Shown here piece after piece: positions 38,252-48,819 of a stretch of DNA of 64,000 nucleotides (position 1 is its first letter; every line of letters begins with the position of its first letter). The stretch comes from an uncultured Clostridia bacterium (lineage in GTDB: Bacteria; Bacillota; Clostridia; Oscillospirales; Ruminococcaceae), in NCBI GenBank assembly GCA_947510165.1, contig CANNSB010000002.1, forward strand, positions 1 to 64,000. The letters run 5' to 3'. The notes beneath the pieces are model-generated. The model worked only from the letters and a program-made list of their open reading frames with translations, had not been told where the DNA came from and did not search any database. A program made the position numbers and the translations under genes.

Positions 38252-38280
38252 TTGACATTGGATATTTGGTATTATATAAT
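38252..38280 (+). promoter_or_regulatory. Consensus promoter of the first cohesin/dockerin-like gene
   Basis: TTGACA (38252-38257), 17 bases, TATAAT (38275-38280): a perfect sigma-A match. The transcript would have an untranslated leader of nearly 90 bases before the ATG at 38376; AAGGGAAG near 38361 is the ribosome binding site. Confidence 0.92.
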
Positions 38281-38375
38281 CACATAAATAATAGTTTTTA
38301 GTTATAGATAAATATATATTGTTTAATGGAATGATTATATAAGTGGTGTTTAAATAAAGGAAAAGGGAAGTTTTT

Positions 38376-39767
38376 ATGAAAGATTTATTAAAAAAAAGTA
38401 TAGCTTTTATAGCTGTAGCCTCTATGGCATTTTCTTTTTATCTAGGGGATATTGATTTAGATAAAAAGGATTCTACAGGATTCAATGGTTTAATAACTGC
38501 ATCTGCTGTAACAAGTAAAAAAGCTTTAATAGAGATGGATGTTTATAAATATATCTCTCCGACGGCTGAGAATCCTAATGGTGTTATAGGAGATAAATTA
38601 GAGGATAAAAGACTTATTCTACCAAAAGACAATTATATGCTTAAGATTAGACTTTCAGAAAATGGAGCAGATATATTAAAAAATGGAGTTTTAAGCTTGG
38701 CGACATATATAGATTATGATTCGACAAAAATCACTATAACTTCTAATTCTACAAGTGTAGATGGAGAAGTTTTATCAAGCCAAAAAGATAAAGATATCTT
38801 TGATAGTGGTCTTAAAAATGGAGGAGCTAGTGCTGTTTCCTTTAAAAAGAATATTTTTGATAATTTTATAACTAACACAGTTTCTGCAACAGCTGGTGTA
38901 GATAGAATATCTATTCTTCAGTCTGTTAAAGATGGAAATTATGGAGATGGAAATAAATTTTATAAAGGATTAGAAGCTGATGATGTAATAGCAGCCATAA
39001 CTTTTAGTGTAGATCAGATGGCAACTAGTATAGATGATAGCTTTTTAAGATTTGATTCTTCTATAAATGAGATGACAGTTTTTAACTCTGAAGTTACAGA
39101 GGATAAAACAACTTATAATAATCAATTTGATAGAGATAAACTTAGTTCTATAGAAGATTTTAAGAACACAGAAAGACTTATTGGAGAACCAAAAAACATT
39201 TCTCTAAATGTTGGAAATCCAGGAGAATTGGATCCAACAGATGATAAAACATTAAATATCTATTATAAAAAAGAGTTTAGAGACACAGGCTTTAGTGTTT
39301 TAGATGATAATGGACTGAACTATGACGCTGATTATAGGGTTTCTAGAGTTGTTACAGTTCCAGGAAGTTCTGACAAGGTAGATATTGGTTTATTTTCTTC
39401 TACAGAAAAAATTTCAAATCTTTCTATAAACCCAAATGAAATGGGCAAAATTGAGTATTCATATCCTTTAAGAAGTGGTAGAGTTGATATAAAAACAGAT
39501 AGAAGCCTTAAAACTCATTATCTTAGAGGCGATGTGAATAATGATGGTGAAATAACAAAAATTGATGAAGTTTTAGTTAATGAAGTTAATAAAAGAATTT
39601 ATAAGAATATAAAATTGGGTATTCATGAAGATAAAGATACATATTTTTTGAGAGCTATAGATGTTGATAGAGATAAATTTTCTACCCATCATGATGCATT
39701 TAGAATCCAAATGGATAGAACTGGGATACAATTGATAAAACAAGACTATTCTTATCTAGTTAAATAA
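38376..39767 (+). CDS. Secreted protein with cohesin-like and dockerin-like modules (P1)
   Basis: First and smallest (463 aa) of four related exported proteins. A signal peptide (1-25, possibly processed nearer ITASA at 40-44) leads to the shared mature start (ALIEMDVYKY). Residues about 45-235 form a beta-rich domain with the cohesin-like pattern of an LPKDNYMLKIRL strand followed by ATYIDYDSTKITI. An Ig-like module with the conserved EFRD signature follows (about 290-370). The C-terminus (383-445) is dockerin-like: first loop GDVNNDGEITKIDEVLV with Asp/Asn at calcium positions, second loop IDVDRDKFSTHHDAFRIQ. It lacks the middle module found in P3 and P4. There is no membrane anchor or LPxTG. 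The family assignment is by pattern; confidence in export is high, in module identity moderate. Confidence 0.8.
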   Translation: MKDLLKKSIAFIAVASMAFSFYLGDIDLDKKDSTGFNGLITASAVTSKKALIEMDVYKYISPTAENPNGVIGDKLEDKRLILPKDNYMLKIRLSENGADILKNGVLSLATYIDYDSTKITITSNSTSVDGEVLSSQKDKDIFDSGLKNGGASAVSFKKNIFDNFITNTVSATAGVDRISILQSVKDGNYGDGNKFYKGLEADDVIAAITFSVDQMATSIDDSFLRFDSSINEMTVFNSEVTEDKTTYNNQFDRDKLSSIEDFKNTERLIGEPKNISLNVGNPGELDPTDDKTLNIYYKKEFRDTGFSVLDDNGLNYDADYRVSRVVTVPGSSDKVDIGLFSSTEKISNLSINPNEMGKIEYSYPLRSGRVDIKTDRSLKTHYLRGDVNNDGEITKIDEVLVNEVNKRIYKNIKLGIHEDKDTYFLRAIDVDRDKFSTHHDAFRIQMDRTGIQLIKQDYSYLVK

Positions 39768-39781
39768 ATTAAATAAGATAT

Positions 39782-39818
39782 AAATAAGGAAAAATCTTTT
39801 AAAGATTTTTCCTTATTT
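39782..39818 (+). terminator. Terminator after P1
   Basis: At least a 16-bp stem (39782-39797 / 39803-39818) with a short loop, T-rich on its 3' arm (GATTTTTCCTTATTTTA). Confidence 0.88.
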
Positions 39819-39931
39819 TACATTTAGGGCTATTTTAGTATCATTTAGTGTAAAAACATTATAATTATTAATACATATAGTAAAATAAATTAACAATATA
39901 ACGATAAAATATATGAAAAGAAAAAAGATAG

Positions 39932-39960
39932 TTGATTTTATTTTTTATATGTTTTATAAT
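39932..39960 (+). promoter_or_regulatory. Promoter of the large surface protein gene (P2)
   Basis: TTGATT (39932-39937), 17 bases, TATAAT (39955-39960). The predicted leader is about 95 bases and contains the hairpin at 39997-40035. The rest of gap 39819-39931 is featureless AT-rich DNA. Confidence 0.8.
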
Positions 39961-39996
39961 TATTAATGTAGAATTCACAGGTTGATAATTATTTTG

Positions 39997-40035
39997 CATA
40001 AACTCTAAGAAGTTTTTCTAATTTCTTAGTTTATG
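39997..40035 (+). other. 5' leader hairpin of P2 mRNA
   Basis: CATAAA (39997-40002) pairs with TTTATG (40030-40035) and CTAAGAA (40005-40011) with TTCTTAG (40023-40029), with a two-base bulge and an 11-base loop. It ends 13 bases before the AGGAGG (40049-40054). A stable leader stem close to the 5' end often lengthens the life of abundant surface-protein mRNAs; that role is inferred. Confidence 0.6.
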
Positions 40036-40060
40036 ATATAAATTAAGCAGGAGGGATATA

Positions 40061-43000
40061 ATGTTTCCAAAAACTTTTAAAAGAGCCGTTGCAGTATTTT
40101 TATGTTTTGCTGTAATGATTTCTATTATTCCGCAAAGTTTCCAAGCAGATGCATTAAGTTTTTTCAAAACTACTACTAAAGCCGATTTTAAATTAGAGCT
40201 TTATAAGTATGACAAAACTAGTGTAGATTCAGAAGGCATTGGTAGCCTTGGCGATATGTTAAATCCAGATGGAGATAAAGCTATCGTAACACCAGGGGAC
40301 GAAATCGTAGTTTTAGTTAAGATGGAAAAATACGAAAAACCTTTTGGTTTTAGTGGTATCGAGTATTCTCTTGGATATGATCCAGGACAAGTTACACTTA
40401 TGACAAGTCCTGATACTGGAAGTGGAGTTGTTCCACCAGAGGGAAGCGAGCAAACAGAATTCCAAAATGCATATTGGAATAAACTAAACCCTGGAAAGTT
40501 AAAACCAGCAAATGATATATATGGTGAATTCCGTATAAGTAATTTTGATCCTTTTGGAGCTTTAGATTCTGCTGTTGAAGGACAAAGAGAAATTCAAGCT
40601 TATATATACAATTCAAATGGTGAAACTGGTATACCATATGATAAAGAAGCGAACTTTACAGGTTCTGCTGATGATCAAACAATAGGGGTTTATATATTTA
40701 AAGTTAATGATAAACCAAGTCCAACACCAGGAGTTAAACCACTTTCAGTTTTCACTGATGATGGATCTATAGTTATCTCAAACTTCACTGCTGATAACTA
40801 TGTAGATTCAACTCATATTGTTAAAGGTGGAGCTGGAGATGCTGACTTTGATGCAGTGTTTAACCCACCAGTTGATCCTGAAGTGGACATCGAAATAAAC
40901 CTACCAGATGTGAATAGCATAATAATCAGCAATGCTGATGTTTATACTGGTATAAGAGATGTTGAAATTTCAAAAATGAGTGATGGAACATTTATTCCAA
41001 AAGACTCTATAGTTAAAATATACTCACCTGATAATGTTCTTATGGCTGAATATACTTTAACTGAAACAACTACAGAAAAAACACCGGCTAAATTTACAAT
41101 CGAAAGACATGATAAATCTAACCTAGGTGGAGATTTTGGAGTTTCCGTAACATTACCAGGAAAACTAGAATCTGATAAAGTTTCTATTAAAACAAACCCA
41201 AGAGACAATAATATTAAAACAGATTCAACTCTTACAACTCCTACAGAACCAACATTAGAAATTGGCCGTCCAATCAAGGATGTAATTTCTAAAAAAGGAA
41301 CTGATGAGAGCGATAAATTACCTACATTACCAAAAAATGCTACTGTTACATATAACCCAAACACAGGTTCAGAATCTGGGACTTATAGTGCAAAAGCTGC
41401 TTTAGGTGATTGGTTCTTTGGACCTGGATCTGACCTTAATAGTGTAGGAATAGTTAAAACAAGTACATTGTTTGAAGAAAATATTATTGCTATTCCTACA
41501 GGTAATATGAAAGTTGTTAACGTAGGAACTGAAGCTGATAATAAAATCAGAAGATATGCGCATATGTATATCAGAATGACACCTCCAATCTTCGATTATA
41601 TTATGCCAGTTGCTCCAGTTTATACATCTGCAGATGATGAAAAACTAAAAGATACTAAATCTGATAAAGATGTAATCGACGTATTATTCCCAACAACTGT
41701 AAAAGCTGTTAAATCTGATGGTAGAATTTTAACACTTGTTGCAAATTGGGGACCAGATGCGGGAGTTAATAATAAGTTCGATCCTAAAGGACAAACTTAT
41801 ACTTATAAAACAAATATAAATGGTGTTGTTGCAAATAAACAACTTGCAGGACAACAAGCAATAGTTACACCTGTTACAGGTAAACTACCTGCAGAAGTTA
41901 AAGACTCCACTATTATATTACCAAAAGATAGCACTGTAACTTATGCTGAATTATTAGCTATGTTCCCTAAATCAAACGGAAATATAGAACTATTTGGAAG
42001 CATATTCGGAAATGTTGTTGGACCTACATATTCAATAGCATGGACACCAAATGCTCTTCCAGGCGATTGGGATACAAGCGTTGCTGGAAAAGAATTTAAA
42101 TTTACAGGTGCAATAACTACTGGACCTATCGATAGATGGTTAACTTATAACGATGTTAAGAGTATAACTATCACAGTTAAAATTGACGATATGGACGATA
42201 TAGTTATAATAGATCCATTACCAACTTATCCAGATGATCCAAACACAGAAGGTAGTGTAGATCCATTTAAAGGTCATCTAACATCAGCTGATGATAAACT
42301 TATTGAAAAAGCAGATACAACACAAGATATTTCTGATCTAACTTTACCAAACTTATTAGAAGTTGGAAAATTAGTTGATGGAAAAGTTGTTTCAGTTGGA
42401 TATATGAAAGCTAATTGGAATTTTGTATCAGCAATCAATGGTTCTACAAAAGATAAAATTGAATATAAAAAAGAATCATATTCTTATTCTTCTTCTGTAG
42501 ATGGCGTTAAAGCACAAATTGATGCTAAATCAGTTGTAACAGCAGTTAAAGGTTCTCTAGATGTTGCAACACCTATGGACATATTCTTAACACAAGAACA
42601 ACGTGAAGAGATATTTACGTATGAAGATTTAGTTAAATATTTCCCTTCAAGAAATGGTGATATTAAACTAGTTGATAATAAACCATATTCTAATGTTTCT
42701 TATACAATTTCATGGGCTCCTGGATCTCTTCCAGAAGATTTCTTTACAGTACAAAAAGGAACATTTAAATTTAATGGAGCTGTTTCATTAACAAAACCAA
42801 GATGGCTAACAGAAGAACCAACAATTCCATCAGAAGTTATAGTTAATGTACATGTTGATAATAGTAAAACTATTGTTGATATAGTTGATCCAGCTGATAA
42901 ATTTGAAGAAACTTATGCAGATGATGCAAGAGTAAACAAAGCATCAAGTGTTGATTCTATAATTGCTTTATTACCTCAAAACATAGAAGTTGAGATGAGT

Positions 43001-44152
43001 GATGGATCAACAGTATTTGTTCCAGCCAATTGGATACCTGATAGTCAAAAAGATTCTCAAATTGAATTAAAAGGAAAAGTTTATAATTTCACTTCAGGAA
43101 TTTTAGGACTACCAGCTGTAGTTGATCAATCTAAAGGACAGGTATCAGTAATTTCAGTTAAAGGTGAACCTGACGATACATTTAAAGATGCTACTGTAGA
43201 GATTCCTTTAGGAAATACTATATCTTCATTTGAAGAATTGGTTAAACTATTCCCACAAGGAAGCAATTTTGTTCTTCCAGTAGGCAAACATATGCCAGGA
43301 ACAGTTGCACCTTATATAATTGATTGGAACCCAAACACATTATCAGGATTTAACCCACAACAACCAGGTGCAACTAAAACATTTAAAGGTAAATTAAATC
43401 ATTTAAGTGCAAACTGGTTAACATACGATGATACTTTAGAAATAACTGTAACAGTTAAAGTTGCTGATCTACCGATAATTACACCGGAAGATGGAAACCA
43501 TGGGCTTGCAGGAAATAAAGATATTTATATGTATGTAAATCGTGGATTTAGAGATAATGATACTAAACTTGTAAATCTAGATGGAACAGAATTTACAGAT
43601 CCTTATACAATAACAAGATTTGTTGAAAAATATTCTAGCATTACTTCTACAACAATTGCTTCAGGAAGTAAAAAAGATTTACCAGAATATAATCCAACAG
43701 AAGATCTAACTTTAGGTAATGATGGAGAGAATAGTTATGGTAAATATAGAATTACTTATAATTCTACTATTTATGGTAATGTACTTCCAGCAGTAACTAA
43801 AGATGTATATGTTATCTATCTACGTGGAGATATCAACAAAGATGGTATCTTAAACGGACAGAAAAATGACACAACAAGTAACACTGATATGGGACTATTT
43901 AACAGAATAGTTAAAAGACAAGAAAAATATAACAACGGCGAAAGCGATGTTGATTATATGGCTAATCTAGTTAATGCAGGACCATTCAATGGATCATTTA
44001 ACCCTACTGCTGCATTCAGAGTGCACAACCAAGAAAGACTAGAAAAATTAATTTCTGGAATAATTGAAGTTGCACCACAACTATTTGGATACCTAGTTGA
44101 AGGTGAAGACGCTCACACAAATAAACATAAAATCAAATCTATAAACGACTAG
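40061..44152 (+). CDS. Large secreted multi-repeat protein with cohesin-like N-terminus and dockerin-like C-terminus (P2)
   Basis: A 1363-aa exported protein, second of the four. Signal peptide 1-33 (hydrophobic core VAVFLCFAVMISIIP). Residues about 43-250 hold the shared cohesin-like domain (FKLELYKYDK, TPGDEIVVLVKM, GIEYSLGYDPGQVTL). Then a module around 275-390, a linker, three Ig-like repeats of roughly 200 residues (about 515-1140), the FRD module (GFRDNDTKLVNLDG, from about 1161), and a divergent dockerin-like end: GDINKDGILNG with an insertion, and a second loop (NAGPFNGSFNPTAAFRV) that lacks the normal calcium ligands. Codons ending in C (AAC, TTC, GAC, ATC) are visibly more frequent than in neighbouring genes, suggesting high expression. 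AGGAGG is six bases before the ATG. No CBM, SLH or LPxTG was seen. Confidence 0.82.
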   Translation: MFPKTFKRAVAVFLCFAVMISIIPQSFQADALSFFKTTTKADFKLELYKYDKTSVDSEGIGSLGDMLNPDGDKAIVTPGDEIVVLVKMEKYEKPFGFSGIEYSLGYDPGQVTLMTSPDTGSGVVPPEGSEQTEFQNAYWNKLNPGKLKPANDIYGEFRISNFDPFGALDSAVEGQREIQAYIYNSNGETGIPYDKEANFTGSADDQTIGVYIFKVNDKPSPTPGVKPLSVFTDDGSIVISNFTADNYVDSTHIVKGGAGDADFDAVFNPPVDPEVDIEINLPDVNSIIISNADVYTGIRDVEISKMSDGTFIPKDSIVKIYSPDNVLMAEYTLTETTTEKTPAKFTIERHDKSNLGGDFGVSVTLPGKLESDKVSIKTNPRDNNIKTDSTLTTPTEPTLEIGRPIKDVISKKGTDESDKLPTLPKNATVTYNPNTGSESGTYSAKAALGDWFFGPGSDLNSVGIVKTSTLFEENIIAIPTGNMKVVNVGTEADNKIRRYAHMYIRMTPPIFDYIMPVAPVYTSADDEKLKDTKSDKDVIDVLFPTTVKAVKSDGRILTLVANWGPDAGVNNKFDPKGQTYTYKTNINGVVANKQLAGQQAIVTPVTGKLPAEVKDSTIILPKDSTVTYAELLAMFPKSNGNIELFGSIFGNVVGPTYSIAWTPNALPGDWDTSVAGKEFKFTGAITTGPIDRWLTYNDVKSITITVKIDDMDDIVIIDPLPTYPDDPNTEGSVDPFKGHLTSADDKLIEKADTTQDISDLTLPNLLEVGKLVDGKVVSVGYMKANWNFVSAINGSTKDKIEYKKESYSYSSSVDGVKAQIDAKSVVTAVKGSLDVATPMDIFLTQEQREEIFTYEDLVKYFPSRNGDIKLVDNKPYSNVSYTISWAPGSLPEDFFTVQKGTFKFNGAVSLTKPRWLTEEPTIPSEVIVNVHVDNSKTIVDIVDPADKFEETYADDARVNKASSVDSIIALLPQNIEVEMSDGSTVFVPANWIPDSQKDSQIELKGKVYNFTSGILGLPAVVDQSKGQVSVISVKGEPDDTFKDATVEIPLGNTISSFEELVKLFPQGSNFVLPVGKHMPGTVAPYIIDWNPNTLSGFNPQQPGATKTFKGKLNHLSANWLTYDDTLEITVTVKVADLPIITPEDGNHGLAGNKDIYMYVNRGFRDNDTKLVNLDGTEFTDPYTITRFVEKYSSITSTTIASGSKKDLPEYNPTEDLTLGNDGENSYGKYRITYNSTIYGNVLPAVTKDVYVIYLRGDINKDGILNGQKNDTTSNTDMGLFNRIVKRQEKYNNGESDVDYMANLVNAGPFNGSFNPTAAFRVHNQERLEKLISGIIEVAPQLFGYLVEGEDAHTNKHKIKSIND
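41603..43473 (+). repeat. Three diverged repeats of about 200 residues within P2
   Basis: Repeat boundaries are approximate: residues 515-735, 736-945 and 946-1140. Each has an opening adenine-rich coding stretch for TSADD/YADD-like residues, a strand pair ending in ANW (VANWGPD, KANWNFV, PANWIPD), a TYAELLAMFP / TYEDLVKYFP / SFEELVKLFP motif, an IAW/ISW/IDW-x-P motif and a closing RWLT/NWLT segment. Protein-level similarity is clear; DNA-level identity is low, so the duplication is old. Confidence 0.88.
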
Positions 44153-44165
44153 TTTTAGAATTTGA

Positions 44166-44196
44166 AAATAAGGCTAACTTTTAGTTAGCCTTATTT
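44166..44196 (+). terminator. Terminator after P2
   Basis: A 13-bp stem (44166-44178 / 44184-44196) with a 5-base loop, followed by more Ts. A textbook intrinsic terminator. Confidence 0.93.
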
Positions 44197-44261
44197 TTTA
44201 TGTATAAATATAAATTGTAAATATATGTAATCTCTAAATATTGTTAATATTATATTTTCCA

Positions 44262-44275
44262 TGTCGAATTATAAT
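44262..44275 (+). promoter_or_regulatory. Possible P3 promoter with Spo0A-like box
   Basis: TATAAT (44270-44275) is a perfect -10. No good -35 is present; instead TGTCGAA (44262-44268), an exact match to the Spo0A box TGNCGAA, ends one base upstream of the -10. This could mean Spo0A control, although such a 7-mer is expected several times by chance in 64 kb. Confidence 0.35.
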
Positions 44276-44338
44276 ATAAGTAATTTAAAAAGTTTGTGAT
44301 AAACATTCTTTATAAGTTAGATGTTAGGAGAGATAATT

Positions 44339-46411
44339 ATGGGTAAAAATATAGATAGATATAAATTAGGGTCAATTTTTTTATCAGTTATATTTTTTTT
44401 TACAGGAATAATAAATTGTAATAGTGTTGTAAGTGCGGATAGCAAAAAAACTAAAGCGGTTTATACATTGAAGATGTATAAATATCTAGAAGATCCAACA
44501 GGAATAGGTGTAGGAGAATTGGGAGAAGTTATAAAAGATAATATATTACTGCCTGGACAAAAATTTGTTTTAACAATGGCATTAGATAATTTTGATTCTG
44601 TCCACGGTATAGCTGGACTAGATAGTGTAATATCATATGATTCTGCTAGATTTAATTATTTGGGAATTCCTGGTGCAGGAGATCATGATAGTATTATTGG
44701 TGGAGATGAATTTAATTTATCAGATATATCTCAGAATATATTTGATTTAGGTTTTCCAAAATTAGGTGCAAATAGGGATAAATTATCATTTGGAGGTATA
44801 AATAAATATAAAAATTATCTTATAGAATATCCGACAAGGATAGATAATGAAAAAGCTCCAGAAAAGATGAGGTCGATATATTCTAATGTATATTATGCAG
44901 ATACTAAATATGAAAAAAATGAAATATTTGATTTTGAAAAAAATAGGGATGATAAAAATATAATAGGATCATATCTGTTTGAAGTTAAAGAAAATCCTGG
45001 AATAACAGTTGGGATAGATGGATTTATGGTTGATCCAGATTTTATAACTATTTCATACTATGATACAGAATCACTTACATCGGTAAAATATCTTAAAGAA
45101 GATGTAGAGTCGGGAAGTAGTATATTTGATGAAATAGAAGATTTAACACCTTTAAACCCTATAATATTAGATAAAACAGCGGAAAATATAACAGATGATA
45201 TAGATCATGAAGTTGGAACAAGAACCATTACAGTAGGGAATTTAAAAGGATTATTAGAGGTTCCAATAGGTGCAGAAATTGTTGTATATGATAAAAATGA
45301 AGTTGAGTTAGGAAGAGAGATTTCCACTGGGGGTTCTGTAACTGTAAATATTGACAGGGGAACGGATGATAAAAACGCAAGTATTAATCTAGGCGGTGGT
45401 TATAAAATTGTTCCTGTTATTTCGGGTGATAAATCAACTGCGGTTGTACATGAAGTTATAAAAAGACATAATTATATAAAAGAAAATTTAAATATGGGTG
45501 AACTAGGAGAGTTTCCTCTTGGAACGGATCTAGCAGGATTAGATGATAAAGCTGATGAAGTTATAATTACATTTGATATAAAAACAGGATTAGAAGCATC
45601 AATAGGAGCTTTGGAAAAGGATAAACCTAAAATTAATGGAGTTAGTCTTGGAAAATGGAATTTTATAAATCCTGATGATAATATGATTTTAGGAAATCAT
45701 ACTATAAAAAGTATATTTTTGGACAGTATAATAGGAGAAGATACTATTATAAATAAAGATGAAACTTTTATAGGAACAGGAAATATATCAATAAATAGAA
45801 TTGCTACACCAGAGATTATTTTAGGGAATGGAAATGCACTAGATAAAGATATTAAAGATGGTACAGATGATATAACAACATTATACCAGTATTATGGTCT
45901 AGGATTTAGAGATGATTTTAGAGCTATAAATAGCTATGGGATAGATGTTACATCTAAAGTAGAGAGAAGAGTTATATCCGATTCTATAGTTGATTTTAAA
46001 CTTCCAGAGTTTAAGAGCAATGAAAGATTAGATGATTTAAGCGATTCTATATTGGACGCTACAAAGATTGTTATTAAAAACTTTGAAATAATATATTCTT
46101 TTTTAGATATCGATGGAACAGAGATATCAATTTCTAGAAAAGTCAAAGTTTTACATAGATTAGGTGATATAGATAGAAATGGATTTATTGAAGTTTTAGA
46201 TAGAGATATTATGAATGATTTTGTACTAGGATATACAAAAGAATTGGATCTAATAAAAAATCCAGAGACGCTTAAATACATTATAGATATTACAAGAGAA
46301 GGTGAAGCGGATTTAGGAGATTCGTCTAAAATTCAACAACATACGACAGGGTTAGAGAAAATTAGACAGATATATTCTATTATATCTGACGATGAACCAA
46401 TAAATAAATAA
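44339..46411 (+). CDS. Secreted protein with cohesin-like and dockerin-like modules (P3)
   Basis: A 690-aa exported protein, third of the four and closest to P4. ATG 44339 is preceded by AGGAG (44326-44330) at eight bases, so the ATG at 44321 is not used. Signal peptide about 1-34 (LGSIFLSVIFFFTGIINC). Cohesin-like domain about 38-260: YTLKMYKYLED, LPGQKFVLTMALDN, GIAGLDSVISYDSARFNYL and the GIPGAGDHDSIIGG / NLGFPKLGAN motifs shared with P4. Middle module near 290-350 (TRTITVGNLKG, INLGGGYKI). FRD Ig-like module near 520-600 (GFRDDFRAINSYGIDVT). Dockerin-like end from about 608: GDIDRNGFIEVLDRDIM and DITREGEADLGDSSKIQ. No anchor motif. Own terminator. Confidence 0.8.
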   Translation: MGKNIDRYKLGSIFLSVIFFFTGIINCNSVVSADSKKTKAVYTLKMYKYLEDPTGIGVGELGEVIKDNILLPGQKFVLTMALDNFDSVHGIAGLDSVISYDSARFNYLGIPGAGDHDSIIGGDEFNLSDISQNIFDLGFPKLGANRDKLSFGGINKYKNYLIEYPTRIDNEKAPEKMRSIYSNVYYADTKYEKNEIFDFEKNRDDKNIIGSYLFEVKENPGITVGIDGFMVDPDFITISYYDTESLTSVKYLKEDVESGSSIFDEIEDLTPLNPIILDKTAENITDDIDHEVGTRTITVGNLKGLLEVPIGAEIVVYDKNEVELGREISTGGSVTVNIDRGTDDKNASINLGGGYKIVPVISGDKSTAVVHEVIKRHNYIKENLNMGELGEFPLGTDLAGLDDKADEVIITFDIKTGLEASIGALEKDKPKINGVSLGKWNFINPDDNMILGNHTIKSIFLDSIIGEDTIINKDETFIGTGNISINRIATPEIILGNGNALDKDIKDGTDDITTLYQYYGLGFRDDFRAINSYGIDVTSKVERRVISDSIVDFKLPEFKSNERLDDLSDSILDATKIVIKNFEIIYSFLDIDGTEISISRKVKVLHRLGDIDRNGFIEVLDRDIMNDFVLGYTKELDLIKNPETLKYIIDITREGEADLGDSSKIQQHTTGLEKIRQIYSIISDDEPINK

Positions 46412-46424
46412 AAAAATATCACAT

Positions 46425-46472
46425 ATAAAAGATAAAGATATAAAAATAAAATTTTATATCTTTATCTTTTAT
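46425..46472 (+). terminator. Terminator after P3
   Basis: A 21-bp, very AT-rich perfect stem (46425-46445 / 46452-46472) with a 6-base loop, 14 bases after the stop codon. Confidence 0.8.
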
Positions 46473-46552
46473 ACTATATTTACAAAATTATTAATATAAA
46501 ATAACGTTAATATTAAAACTGGTTAAGAATTATCTCCTTTTACGTATTTCTG

Positions 46553-46581
46553 TTGCAAAGGTTATTTATTATGTATATAAT
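46553..46581 (+). promoter_or_regulatory. Promoter of P4
   Basis: TTGCAA (46553-46558), 17 bases, TATAAT (46576-46581). The leader to ATG 46663 is about 75 bases. The rest of gap 46473-46552 shows no structure. Confidence 0.8.
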
Positions 46582-46662
46582 ACATAGATAAGAATAGATG
46601 ATAAATATTTTGTTTAAAATATATTTTAATTGTCTATATTTTACTTAGGGAGTGATTATTTT

Positions 46663-48750
46663 ATGCTTAACAAAAACTATACTAGAAGAATAGCTGCTTT
46701 ATTTATTTGTTTCACATTATTTTTCAGCTTTTTTACACCTAGTGATGTTGGTTTTGCACTTAATGCAGATAAAAAAATAGCGTTAGATTTTTTAAAAACA
46801 ACTAGTCCAAAATATAATTTAAGAATTTATGAATTTATTGAGGATGATAAAGGAAATCCTTCAATGGGTAAAGAGGTTTCTAGCGTTTATCCAAATGATA
46901 AAGTTGTCGTAACAATTTCGTTAGACAATCTTGCAGTAAACTCTGGATTTGCTTCATTTGAGCATAGTCTTCATTATGACAAGGGTGTTGTTGATTATCT
47001 AGGACTTCCTGGTGCTGGAATTGATCACGAAGCCGTAGGTGGAAGTTATCTAGAAGATATCGATCAAAAGTCTAAAGACTATTTTAATTTAGGGTTTCCA
47101 GAAACTGGATTAAATACAAAGTTTATTAGTCTTGGAGAAGAAAATTCTTATGATAAAACATTAATAGAATACCCAGCTTATATAGATTACGGAAATACAA
47201 AACATCCAAATATAAGATCTATATACTTTAGTGCGAGATATGAGGTTGATCCTCCTGTATATGATAAATCAAAAATTTTCTTTTTAGAAAAAAATGTTTC
47301 TGATCAAAATATTTTGAGTTCTTATGTTTTCCAAATAAAAGAAAATCCAAAAAACACATCAGGGGAGTCTATATTTGCTATAGATCCATCATCTTTATTA
47401 CTTTCATATTATAATACAGAAAATATAGTTGATACTACAGACCTTTATGAAACTGTAGGGCCAAATAATATATTTGATGTTATAGAAAAACCAGGACCTG
47501 TAAATCCTGATATAGTTGTTCCATCTCCAGAAAATATTACAGATACTATTGATGAAGTTAATAGAACTAGAACAGTAAGTGTAGGTAATGTAAAAGGAGA
47601 AACATCTGTTCCTATAGGAACATTAATAAAAGTTTATGATCCTAAAGGGAATCTTTTAGGAGAAAAAACAGCTAGTACAGATGGTTCTGTAACTGTTGAT
47701 ATAGTTCGAGGAAGCGATGAAAAAAATGCTGCTATAAATCTTGGTGGAGAATATAGAGTTACAGCTCAAGCAAAAGACTATCCACATGAAAGTATAGCAA
47801 CACCACATATAGTTAAATCTATAAACAATAAAATAATAGCTGATGTAATAGTGGAAGATAGAGAACTTACACCAGGCAGTTCTCTAGGAAAGCTACCAAC
47901 GACTGCTTCAGATATTCCTGTATTAGCAGATCAAAACACTGGATTTGAAAACGGAGAGTATAAATTAGATAGTATTAATTTAGCTTCTTGGAAATTTGCA
48001 GATCCATCAGTAGATTCTAGTATGCTTGGAACTCATGATGTTGAAGCTGATTTTATATTACCAGTGGGTGTATCTAATCCAGATAATAAATTTAAAGCCA
48101 AATCTAAAGTAACTATAAAAGAAAAAATATTATCAAAAATCACTTTAGGTAAGGGAAATGCATTGGAAGCAGATATAGAATCTGGAAAAGATAAAGAAAC
48201 AGATATATATACCTATTATGATCATAACTTTAGAGATAAATTTTTAGCAGTTGATGATAAGGGAATTGATGTAACTAAAGATGTTGAAAGAACTATCTCT
48301 AAAAAAGGTTCAACTAATTCAGTTTCTTTGCCAAAATATTTAAATAATGAATCTATAAATCTTAATATAATTATTGATAATCCTACAGGATTTTTTCAAC
48401 AAGATTTAGTTATAAAATATACTCTTAAAGGAAAAAATATAGATCCTGAAACAGGAGAGATAGAGATTCTTGCAGAGGATGAAAGAACTGTAAAAGTTAT
48501 TCATAAATTAGGAGATTTAGATAGAAACGGTATTATAGATGCTAGAGATAGCAAGATCATAAATGATTATGTTTTAGGATTTGGAACGGATATAAAACCT
48601 TTATTCACACCAGAAATTATAAAACTATTAGTAGATACTAATAGAGATAGTCAGGTGGATTTAGGTGATGCCCATGAAATAATTGCTCATATGAGAAAAT
48701 TATCAAAGATAAAACAGGATTATACTTTTGTTGCAGATGATTATTTATAA
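46663..48750 (+). CDS. Secreted protein with cohesin-like and dockerin-like modules (P4)
   Basis: A 695-aa exported protein, last of the four. ATG 46663 follows AGGGAGTGA (46647-46655) by seven bases; the longer frame from TTG 46630 is rejected. Signal peptide 1-33 (IAALFICFTLFFSFF). Cohesin-like domain about 45-265 (YNLRIYEFIED, YPNDKVVVTISLDN, FEHSLHYDKGVVDYL, GLPGAGIDHEAVGG). Middle module near 300-365 (TRTVSVGNVKGET, INLGGEYRV). FRD module near 520-605 (NFRDKFLAVDDKGIDVT). Dockerin-like end from about 616: GDLDRNGIIDARDSKII and LVDTNRDSQVDLGDAHEII, both loops with near-complete calcium ligands and so the best-formed of the set. It aligns with P3 along its length, pointing to tandem duplication. 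Confidence 0.82.
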   Translation: MLNKNYTRRIAALFICFTLFFSFFTPSDVGFALNADKKIALDFLKTTSPKYNLRIYEFIEDDKGNPSMGKEVSSVYPNDKVVVTISLDNLAVNSGFASFEHSLHYDKGVVDYLGLPGAGIDHEAVGGSYLEDIDQKSKDYFNLGFPETGLNTKFISLGEENSYDKTLIEYPAYIDYGNTKHPNIRSIYFSARYEVDPPVYDKSKIFFLEKNVSDQNILSSYVFQIKENPKNTSGESIFAIDPSSLLLSYYNTENIVDTTDLYETVGPNNIFDVIEKPGPVNPDIVVPSPENITDTIDEVNRTRTVSVGNVKGETSVPIGTLIKVYDPKGNLLGEKTASTDGSVTVDIVRGSDEKNAAINLGGEYRVTAQAKDYPHESIATPHIVKSINNKIIADVIVEDRELTPGSSLGKLPTTASDIPVLADQNTGFENGEYKLDSINLASWKFADPSVDSSMLGTHDVEADFILPVGVSNPDNKFKAKSKVTIKEKILSKITLGKGNALEADIESGKDKETDIYTYYDHNFRDKFLAVDDKGIDVTKDVERTISKKGSTNSVSLPKYLNNESINLNIIIDNPTGFFQQDLVIKYTLKGKNIDPETGEIEILAEDERTVKVIHKLGDLDRNGIIDARDSKIINDYVLGFGTDIKPLFTPEIIKLLVDTNRDSQVDLGDAHEIIAHMRKLSKIKQDYTFVADDYL

Positions 48751-48783
48751 AATATAAATAACTCTAGAATTAAAATATAAATA

Positions 48784-48819
48784 ATAAAAGGAAAGGCGTT
48801 TATGCTCCTTTCCTTTTAT
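48784..48819 (+). terminator. Hairpin after P4
   Basis: A perfect 13-bp stem (48784-48796 / 48807-48819) with a 10-base loop. It overlaps the first ATG of the downstream frame (48802), a reason to place the mscS start further in. Confidence 0.75.

Follow-up and report, generated by a model that had tools for sequence, protein, structure and literature searches.

Monovalent adaptor scaffoldins, in which one cohesin and one dockerin sit on a single enzyme-free chain, are a named class of proteins (PMC11557425). ScaC is one of them, strains of Ruminococcus flavefaciens have 5-11 such proteins, and ScaE is covalently fixed to the cell wall (PMC4081043). Cohesin and dockerin also occur together in the R. 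bromii protein Amy4, which may self-aggregate (PMC5814915), and both modules are known outside cellulosomes (PMC9012536 and PMC10066038). We analysed a 64,000-nucleotide stretch of DNA (the window: positions 1 to 64,000 of contig CANNSB010000002.1, assembly GCA_947510165.1) from an uncultured Clostridia bacterium of the Ruminococcaceae, in which four tandem genes, here called orf1 to orf4, encode secreted-looking proteins with a cohesin-like N-terminal domain (N-domain) and a dockerin-like C-terminal module. We put the probability at roughly 0.55 that these proteins are divergent monovalent adaptor scaffoldins that form surface chains without enzyme cargo and act in adhesion. That a single chain pairs cohesin with dockerin is no novelty, and the view in a preliminary description of the cluster that the two normally sit on different proteins is not supported, since the pairing is that of the known adaptor class. 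What is new is the divergence of the modules to or below Pfam detection, together with a set that combines adaptors with an anchor and end pieces and for which no cargo was found.

Cohesin-like and dockerin-like modules of orf1-4

The cluster lies on the plus strand (38376-48750; translations of the window's open reading frames) and consists of orf1 (38376..39767, 463 residues), orf2 (40061..44152, 1363 residues), orf3 (44339..46411, 690 residues from the ATG at 44339, with a longer reading from 44321) and orf4 (46663..48750, 695 residues from the ATG at 46663, with a longer reading from the TTG at 46630), separated by gaps of 293, 186 and 251 bases. The proteins have in common, in this order, a signal-like N-terminus, the N-domain, an FRD module and a C-terminal calcium-loop module; the hydrophobic, signal-peptide-like stretch was found in all four by reading the sequence, not by a signal-peptide program. 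The N-domain is ~200-250 residues long and spans 38508-39185 in orf1, 40166-40915 in orf2, 44438-45193 in orf3 and 46786-47547 in orf4. Its start pattern reads MDVYKY, LELYKY, LKMYKY and LRIYEF in orf1-4, respectively, and its YD strand motif IDYDSTK, LGYDPGQ, ISYDSAR and LHYDKGV. The FRD module (39225-39515, 43499-43816, 45836-46153 and 48160-48501) is invariant at FRD across its alignment, and a profile search found no PDB relative of it at E <= 10. Thus, the four consecutive genes with a common beta domain, start pattern, YD motif and FRD that the preliminary description had listed were all present. The uniform FRD and immunoglobulin (Ig)-like architecture that it had assumed was found in part: all four proteins contain the FRD module, but the region before it is Ig-like only in orf3 (45194-45835) and orf4 (47548-48159), is an 861-residue middle with a sub-threshold Big_4 match in orf2 (40916-43498), and contains no Ig region in orf1. 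Annotation of orf1-4 with Pfam and NCBIfam gave almost no matches, and neither enzyme, SLH or CBM domains (Pfam, E <= 1) nor a sortase tail was found on any of them. The earlier statement that the system lacks enzyme, SLH, CBM and LPxTG features therefore holds for these four proteins, but not for a sortase-anchored paralogue elsewhere in the genome, described below.

The N-domain profile returned two PDB matches at E <= 10, both of them cohesins. Its hhalign score against cohesin was 46.6, compared with at most 13.5 for 50 column shuffles and at most 18.8 for five other modules, and its matches outside the genus were all (3/3) in Pfam-confirmed cohesin-plus-dockerin proteins of the same family. 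A hidden Markov model (HMM) of 17 family cohesins ranked the six N-domain proteins of the genome 1-6 (E 3.7e-6 to 0.035; next 3.4), a partly circular result in that three of the 17 had been found via the N-domain profile and two are neighbours of those. When these five were dropped, leaving the 12 found by Pfam alone, the ranks weakened to 1-5 and 7 among 355 frames. We left the odds of the adaptor-scaffoldin reading unchanged, because only one of several lines of evidence on the N-domain loses weight in this way and the chief uncertainty, that of binding, is unaffected. Foldseek with an AlphaFold2 model of the orf2 N-domain returned cohesins as the first 33 chains (best E 1.3e-4), and the ScaC cohesin 5lxv was among the structural matches in both VIA-align and Foldseek. 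Streptococcal adhesin domains scored nearly as high as cohesins in VIA-align; taken alone, this comparison would not tell cohesins apart from other surface domains of the Ig type. No protein of the genome reached the Pfam cohesin (PF00963) cut-off, the best score (14.9 of 24.1 bits) belonging to a cohesin-only paralogue. Profile comparisons gave the clearest cohesin homology for the cohesin-only protein and the N-domains of orf2 and orf4, and the weakest for the anchor protein and orf1, and apart from the closer pairs orf3/orf4 and orf2/cohesin-only the N-domain types are only 14-24% identical to one another. These results indicate that the N-domain is, by detectable profile homology, a divergent cohesin, and that of orf2 is predicted to have the cohesin jelly-roll fold. 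A full-length model of orf4 (pLDDT 49.1, pTM 0.31) was too poor for docking or fold search.

The C-terminal module (39516-39764 in orf1, 43817-44149 in orf2, 46154-46408 in orf3 and 48502-48747 in orf4) matched Pfam Dockerin_1 (PF00404; cut-off 22.9 bits) in orf1 (23.8 bits) and orf4 (22.6 bits; 28.7 with neighbours), and in a second run these matches fell just below the cut-off (21.7 and 21.1 bits). Dockerin_1 was not matched on orf2, orf3 or a dockerin-only protein, so that Pfam missed three of the five modules in the genome. In the PDB, the module profile matched the ScaB dockerins 4uyp_B and 4uyq_B (E 1.3e-5), followed by chains titled serine protease (3.3e-4) and further dockerins, with EF-hand proteins and others at E of at least 0.7; orf4 matched the ScaH dockerin 8ajy_B (E 2e-5). 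The preliminary description had credited all four proteins with a duplicated calcium loop. In orf1, orf3 and orf4 the first loop follows the regular pattern, and in orf2 a long insertion interrupts it. Ligand positions 1, 3, 5 and 12 of the second loop are acidic or Asn in orf1 and orf4; in orf3 this loop is degenerate, in orf2 it is unrecognisable and in the dockerin-only protein it is lost. Both loops are thus well kept in orf4, in all three species aligned, and nearly so in orf1. An HMM of five true dockerins from relatives gave only poor matches to the set (best E 0.013; 2.7 for orf2), and the dockerin assignment therefore rests on the Pfam and PDB matches and the loops. Within the family, the module profile had matches at E <= 1e-4 in 3 of 397 genomes, all of them members of the genus. 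The module is dockerin-like, judged by its sequence. Accordingly, the modules are much as first described, as cohesin-like (profiles, family-cohesin HMMs, Foldseek) and dockerin-like (Dockerin_1, 8ajy_B, 4uyp_B), with the two Pfam families originally named behaving differently: PF00963 stayed below its cut-off throughout, and PF00404 scored around its cut-off on orf1 and orf4 only.

In having one cohesin-like and one dockerin-like module on one secreted, enzyme-free chain, orf1-4 resemble ScaC-type adaptor scaffoldins, with the caveat that the former lies below and the latter around or below its Pfam cut-off. The three proteins outside the genus that the N-domain profile matched also belong to this class. 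They differ from ScaC-type proteins also in the longer N-domain (the Pfam model has 139 residues), in the FRD and mostly Ig modules in between, and in that no dockerin-bearing enzyme was found.

Putative anchor and end pieces, and absence of detected cargo

The genome of the window species (1.32 Mb in 19 contigs, with a listed completeness of 100%) and two others of the genus, G001 (83% complete) and G002, were searched for further cohesin or dockerin proteins, as the preliminary description had proposed, and three were found in the first of these. By profile, the six N-domain proteins of the window's own genome are orf1-4, a 780-residue protein (C3:46178) and a 357-residue protein (C1:22700); G002 has six, and G001 five, one of them matched in two pieces. 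Each of the six has a single N-domain, and no multi-cohesin scaffoldin was found among them by profile. The C1:22700 protein is cohesin-only, having an N-domain without dockerin. Dockerin-like modules numbered five at E <= 1 (orf1-4 and C3:85365), against five in G002 and four in G001, and the C3:85365 protein contains only an N-terminal hydrophobic stretch, FRD and dockerin.

At the C-terminus of the C3:46178 protein, IPMTG (replaced by VPMTG in the two other species) is followed by a hydrophobic segment and then basic residues. This tail scored above the cut-off of NCBIfam LPXTG_anchor TIGR01167 (19.0 of 15.9 bits) and below that of Pfam Gram_pos_anchor PF00746 (12.9 of 20). Each of the three genus genomes has one sortase (PF04203); that of the window species is of class B by TIGR03064 (174.4 of 153.75 bits), and its gene lies ~8 kb from that of C3:46178. 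The C3:46178 protein is thus a predicted sortase-anchored N-domain paralogue. Like ScaE-type anchoring scaffoldins it combines a single cohesin-like module with a sortase tail, and it differs from them in its I/V-PMTG motif, class B sortase and Ig modules and in an N-domain whose 14-21% identity places it with the most divergent of the six. The Gram_pos_anchor model was noisy, matching 13 of 14 controls. It gave ten matches in the three genomes, and seven of the eight loci inspected (L061, L063, L064, L065, L066, L067 and L068) had NPxTG- or NPxTSD-like tails and therefore probably encode other sortase substrates.

orf3 and orf4 are 39% identical in the N-domain and 40% in FRD plus dockerin. 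The orf2 N-domain is 47% identical to the cohesin-only protein, and the orf2 FRD plus dockerin 48% to the dockerin-only protein. From these parallel module types we infer links plus end pieces of one kind. With both partners on one chain and spacers between them, cohesin and dockerin could instead clasp in cis and give a closed monomer and no chain; the existence of one protein with only a dockerin, and of two with an N-domain but no dockerin, is easier to explain by binding in trans, and we consider the closed monomer highly improbable.

No dockerin-like module was found on an enzyme in this genome with the genus-dockerin profile (E <= 1), a search that very divergent dockerins could escape, and no enzyme domain was found by Pfam on any examined member of the set. 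Neither of the two defining features of a cellulosome, dockerin-bearing enzymes and a multi-cohesin primary scaffoldin, was thus found here. The R. bromii amylosome resembles the set in having a sortase-anchored scaffoldin (Sca5) and a protein, Amy4/Sca1, that bears both cohesin and dockerin and is proposed to self-aggregate (PMC5814915), but Amy4 is an amylase. A different explanation is that orf1-4 serve as adaptors in an ordinary enzyme complex, for example one acting on mucin sugars, whose enzymes bear dockerins too divergent to detect. Adaptor scaffoldins are described alongside dockerin-bearing enzymes (PMC11557425 and PMC4081043), mucinolysomes exist (PMC12997984), a protein with a mucin-binding domain is encoded beside the cohesin-only gene, and Pfam alone misses most of the dockerin-like modules. 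Against such a complex, the profile that recovered five dockerin-like modules placed none on an enzyme, every N-domain protein has just one N-domain, and GH5 was absent from all three genus genomes with positive controls. PF07555 (GH84), a family reported for AC_RUM01 (PMC11092275), had no match in the three genomes, yet the controls were silent too. We regard a hidden enzyme complex as unlikely. Because no enzyme is attached and none with a dockerin was found in the genome, a scaffold different from a cellulosome, as originally suggested, is a fair reading.

The protein with the mucin-binding domain has 539 residues (L015:5146-6765, at ~20.1-21.8 kb of contig C1), with PF03272 (42.0 of 27 bits) and Big_2, and a similar gene occupies the same place in G002 (L048:4481-6100). 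Also near the cohesin-only gene, a 1243-residue protein (L015:9137-12868) contains DUF11, Big_9, GEVED and a C-terminal SipL/SPOCS domain; it adjoins short proteins resembling its end and is possibly related to the spore surface. A SpoIID-type protein is encoded beside the sortase gene. This loose neighbourhood of paralogue genes was all that pointed to spores, and nothing ties the cluster to the spore fibre once suggested.

Conservation in the genus

Contig JAGUQX010000003.1 of 'Oscillospiraceae bacterium isolate AC_RUM01' carries orf1-4 in unchanged order and with the same neighbours, and G001 likewise keeps their order and the genes downstream, its contig stopping just upstream. Leaving the signal peptides aside, module identities to the window range from 66 to 95% across the two other species, all being at least 77% except that of the orf4 Ig region in G001. 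Conservation is comparatively low (75-78%) for the N-domains of orf4 and of the cohesin-only protein, and lower only for signal peptides, the orf4 Ig region and the anchor tail. The ratio of nonsynonymous to synonymous substitution rates (dN/dS) against the AC_RUM01 contig was 0.18, 0.24, 0.14 and 0.23 for orf1-4, respectively, compared with 0.07 for prfB and 0.09 for galU. By these ratios, orf1-4 are under constraint but evolve faster than housekeeping genes. The cluster is more than chance, since its gene order is kept in two other species with similar modules and dN/dS of 0.14-0.24.

These comparisons bear on another explanation, that the two modules diverged to separate tasks, such as binding of a host glycan or epithelial ligand and a calcium-stiffened stalk, and no longer bind each other. 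The strong divergence among N-domain types, the VIA-align scores of streptococcal adhesin domains, the low conservation of the two N-domains and an epithelium-associated lifestyle would all fit it. The retention of both modules together in four paralogues of three species and the well-kept calcium loops of orf4 speak against it, and we find separate tasks rather improbable.

With the orf4 protein as query, 3 of 61 genomes matched, all genus members. Cohesins are common in the family (44 of 149 genomes), and two genomes of another of its genera, g121, each contain a tandem pair of genes (L069 and L070) for proteins in which Pfam finds a cohesin and a dockerin but no further domain. Non-cellulosomal proteins of ANME archaea, Omnitrophota, Clostridium perfringens and Archaeoglobus (2jh2, 2xdh) have cohesin or dockerin modules outside cellulose breakdown, in other hosts and with other companion domains, and the parts of PMC9012536 and PMC10066038 on such systems describe no tandem four-gene cohesin-dockerin set with its own anchor. 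The dS of orf2 against the AC_RUM01 contig (0.20) was about half that of orf1, orf3 and orf4 (0.41-0.45), and orf2 is richer in codons ending in C; this may point to high expression, for which a codon-usage test gave no clear signal. The cluster is flanked by uvrC-like and mscS-like genes (names read from translations). Upstream of orf1, a promoter-like site with a perfect TTGACA-17-TATAAT (12/12) lies at 38252..38280 on the plus strand, in a scan that overall hardly exceeded shuffles (82 sites vs 71.3, standard deviation 8.6).

A putative enzyme-free surface assembly

The AC_RUM01 bacterium, a coccus of ~1 um, builds dense clusters on the gut epithelium of farmed Arctic char; these reach a thickness of 10 um, were visualised by fluorescence in situ hybridization and were seen mostly in empty-gut fish. 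Its sequence variant occurred in 29 of 35 wild fish, and its metagenome-assembled genome has few carbohydrate-use genes for its size (PMC11092275). The main text of that report contains no occurrence of cohesin, dockerin or cellulosome, and we found no publication linking cohesins with Ruminococcaceae of the salmonid gut. A gut-symbiont lifestyle of the window species may be supposed from the shared genus only.

Our proposal builds on the homology of the domains, on the parts present in the genome, on their conservation within the genus and on the lack of a detected dockerin-bearing enzyme. The secreted-looking orf1-4 proteins have a cohesin-like module at one end and a calcium-loop dockerin-like module at the other, with FRD and, in three of them, Ig-like spacers in between. 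The dockerin of one molecule would bind, with Ca2+, the cohesin of another from the same or a different gene, and such head-to-tail joining would produce chains on the cell surface. The sortase-tailed C3:46178 protein would tie these chains to the wall via the single class B sortase, and the cohesin-only and dockerin-only proteins may cap them. The enzyme-free assembly could then serve adhesion between cells or between cells and mucosa in a gut symbiont, a role with which the dense epithelial clusters of AC_RUM01 and the mucin-binding-module gene near the cohesin-only gene would fit. The genus with this set, for which no cargo was found, has a 1.3-Mb genome and a member that clusters on fish gut epithelium. 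More speculatively, and with some doubt, a mucosal symbiont with a small genome might have turned cellulosome linkers into a structural, calcium-dependent, sortase-anchored polymer without cargo that holds cells together on the gut wall.

The system is small, its N-domains and dockerin-like modules giving 6 x 5 combinations. Holding enzymes is the main known use of cohesin-dockerin pairs; if the proposal is true, the same plug and socket would be used here as building material, and the set would suggest how an uncultured host-associated lineage forms dense epithelial clusters.

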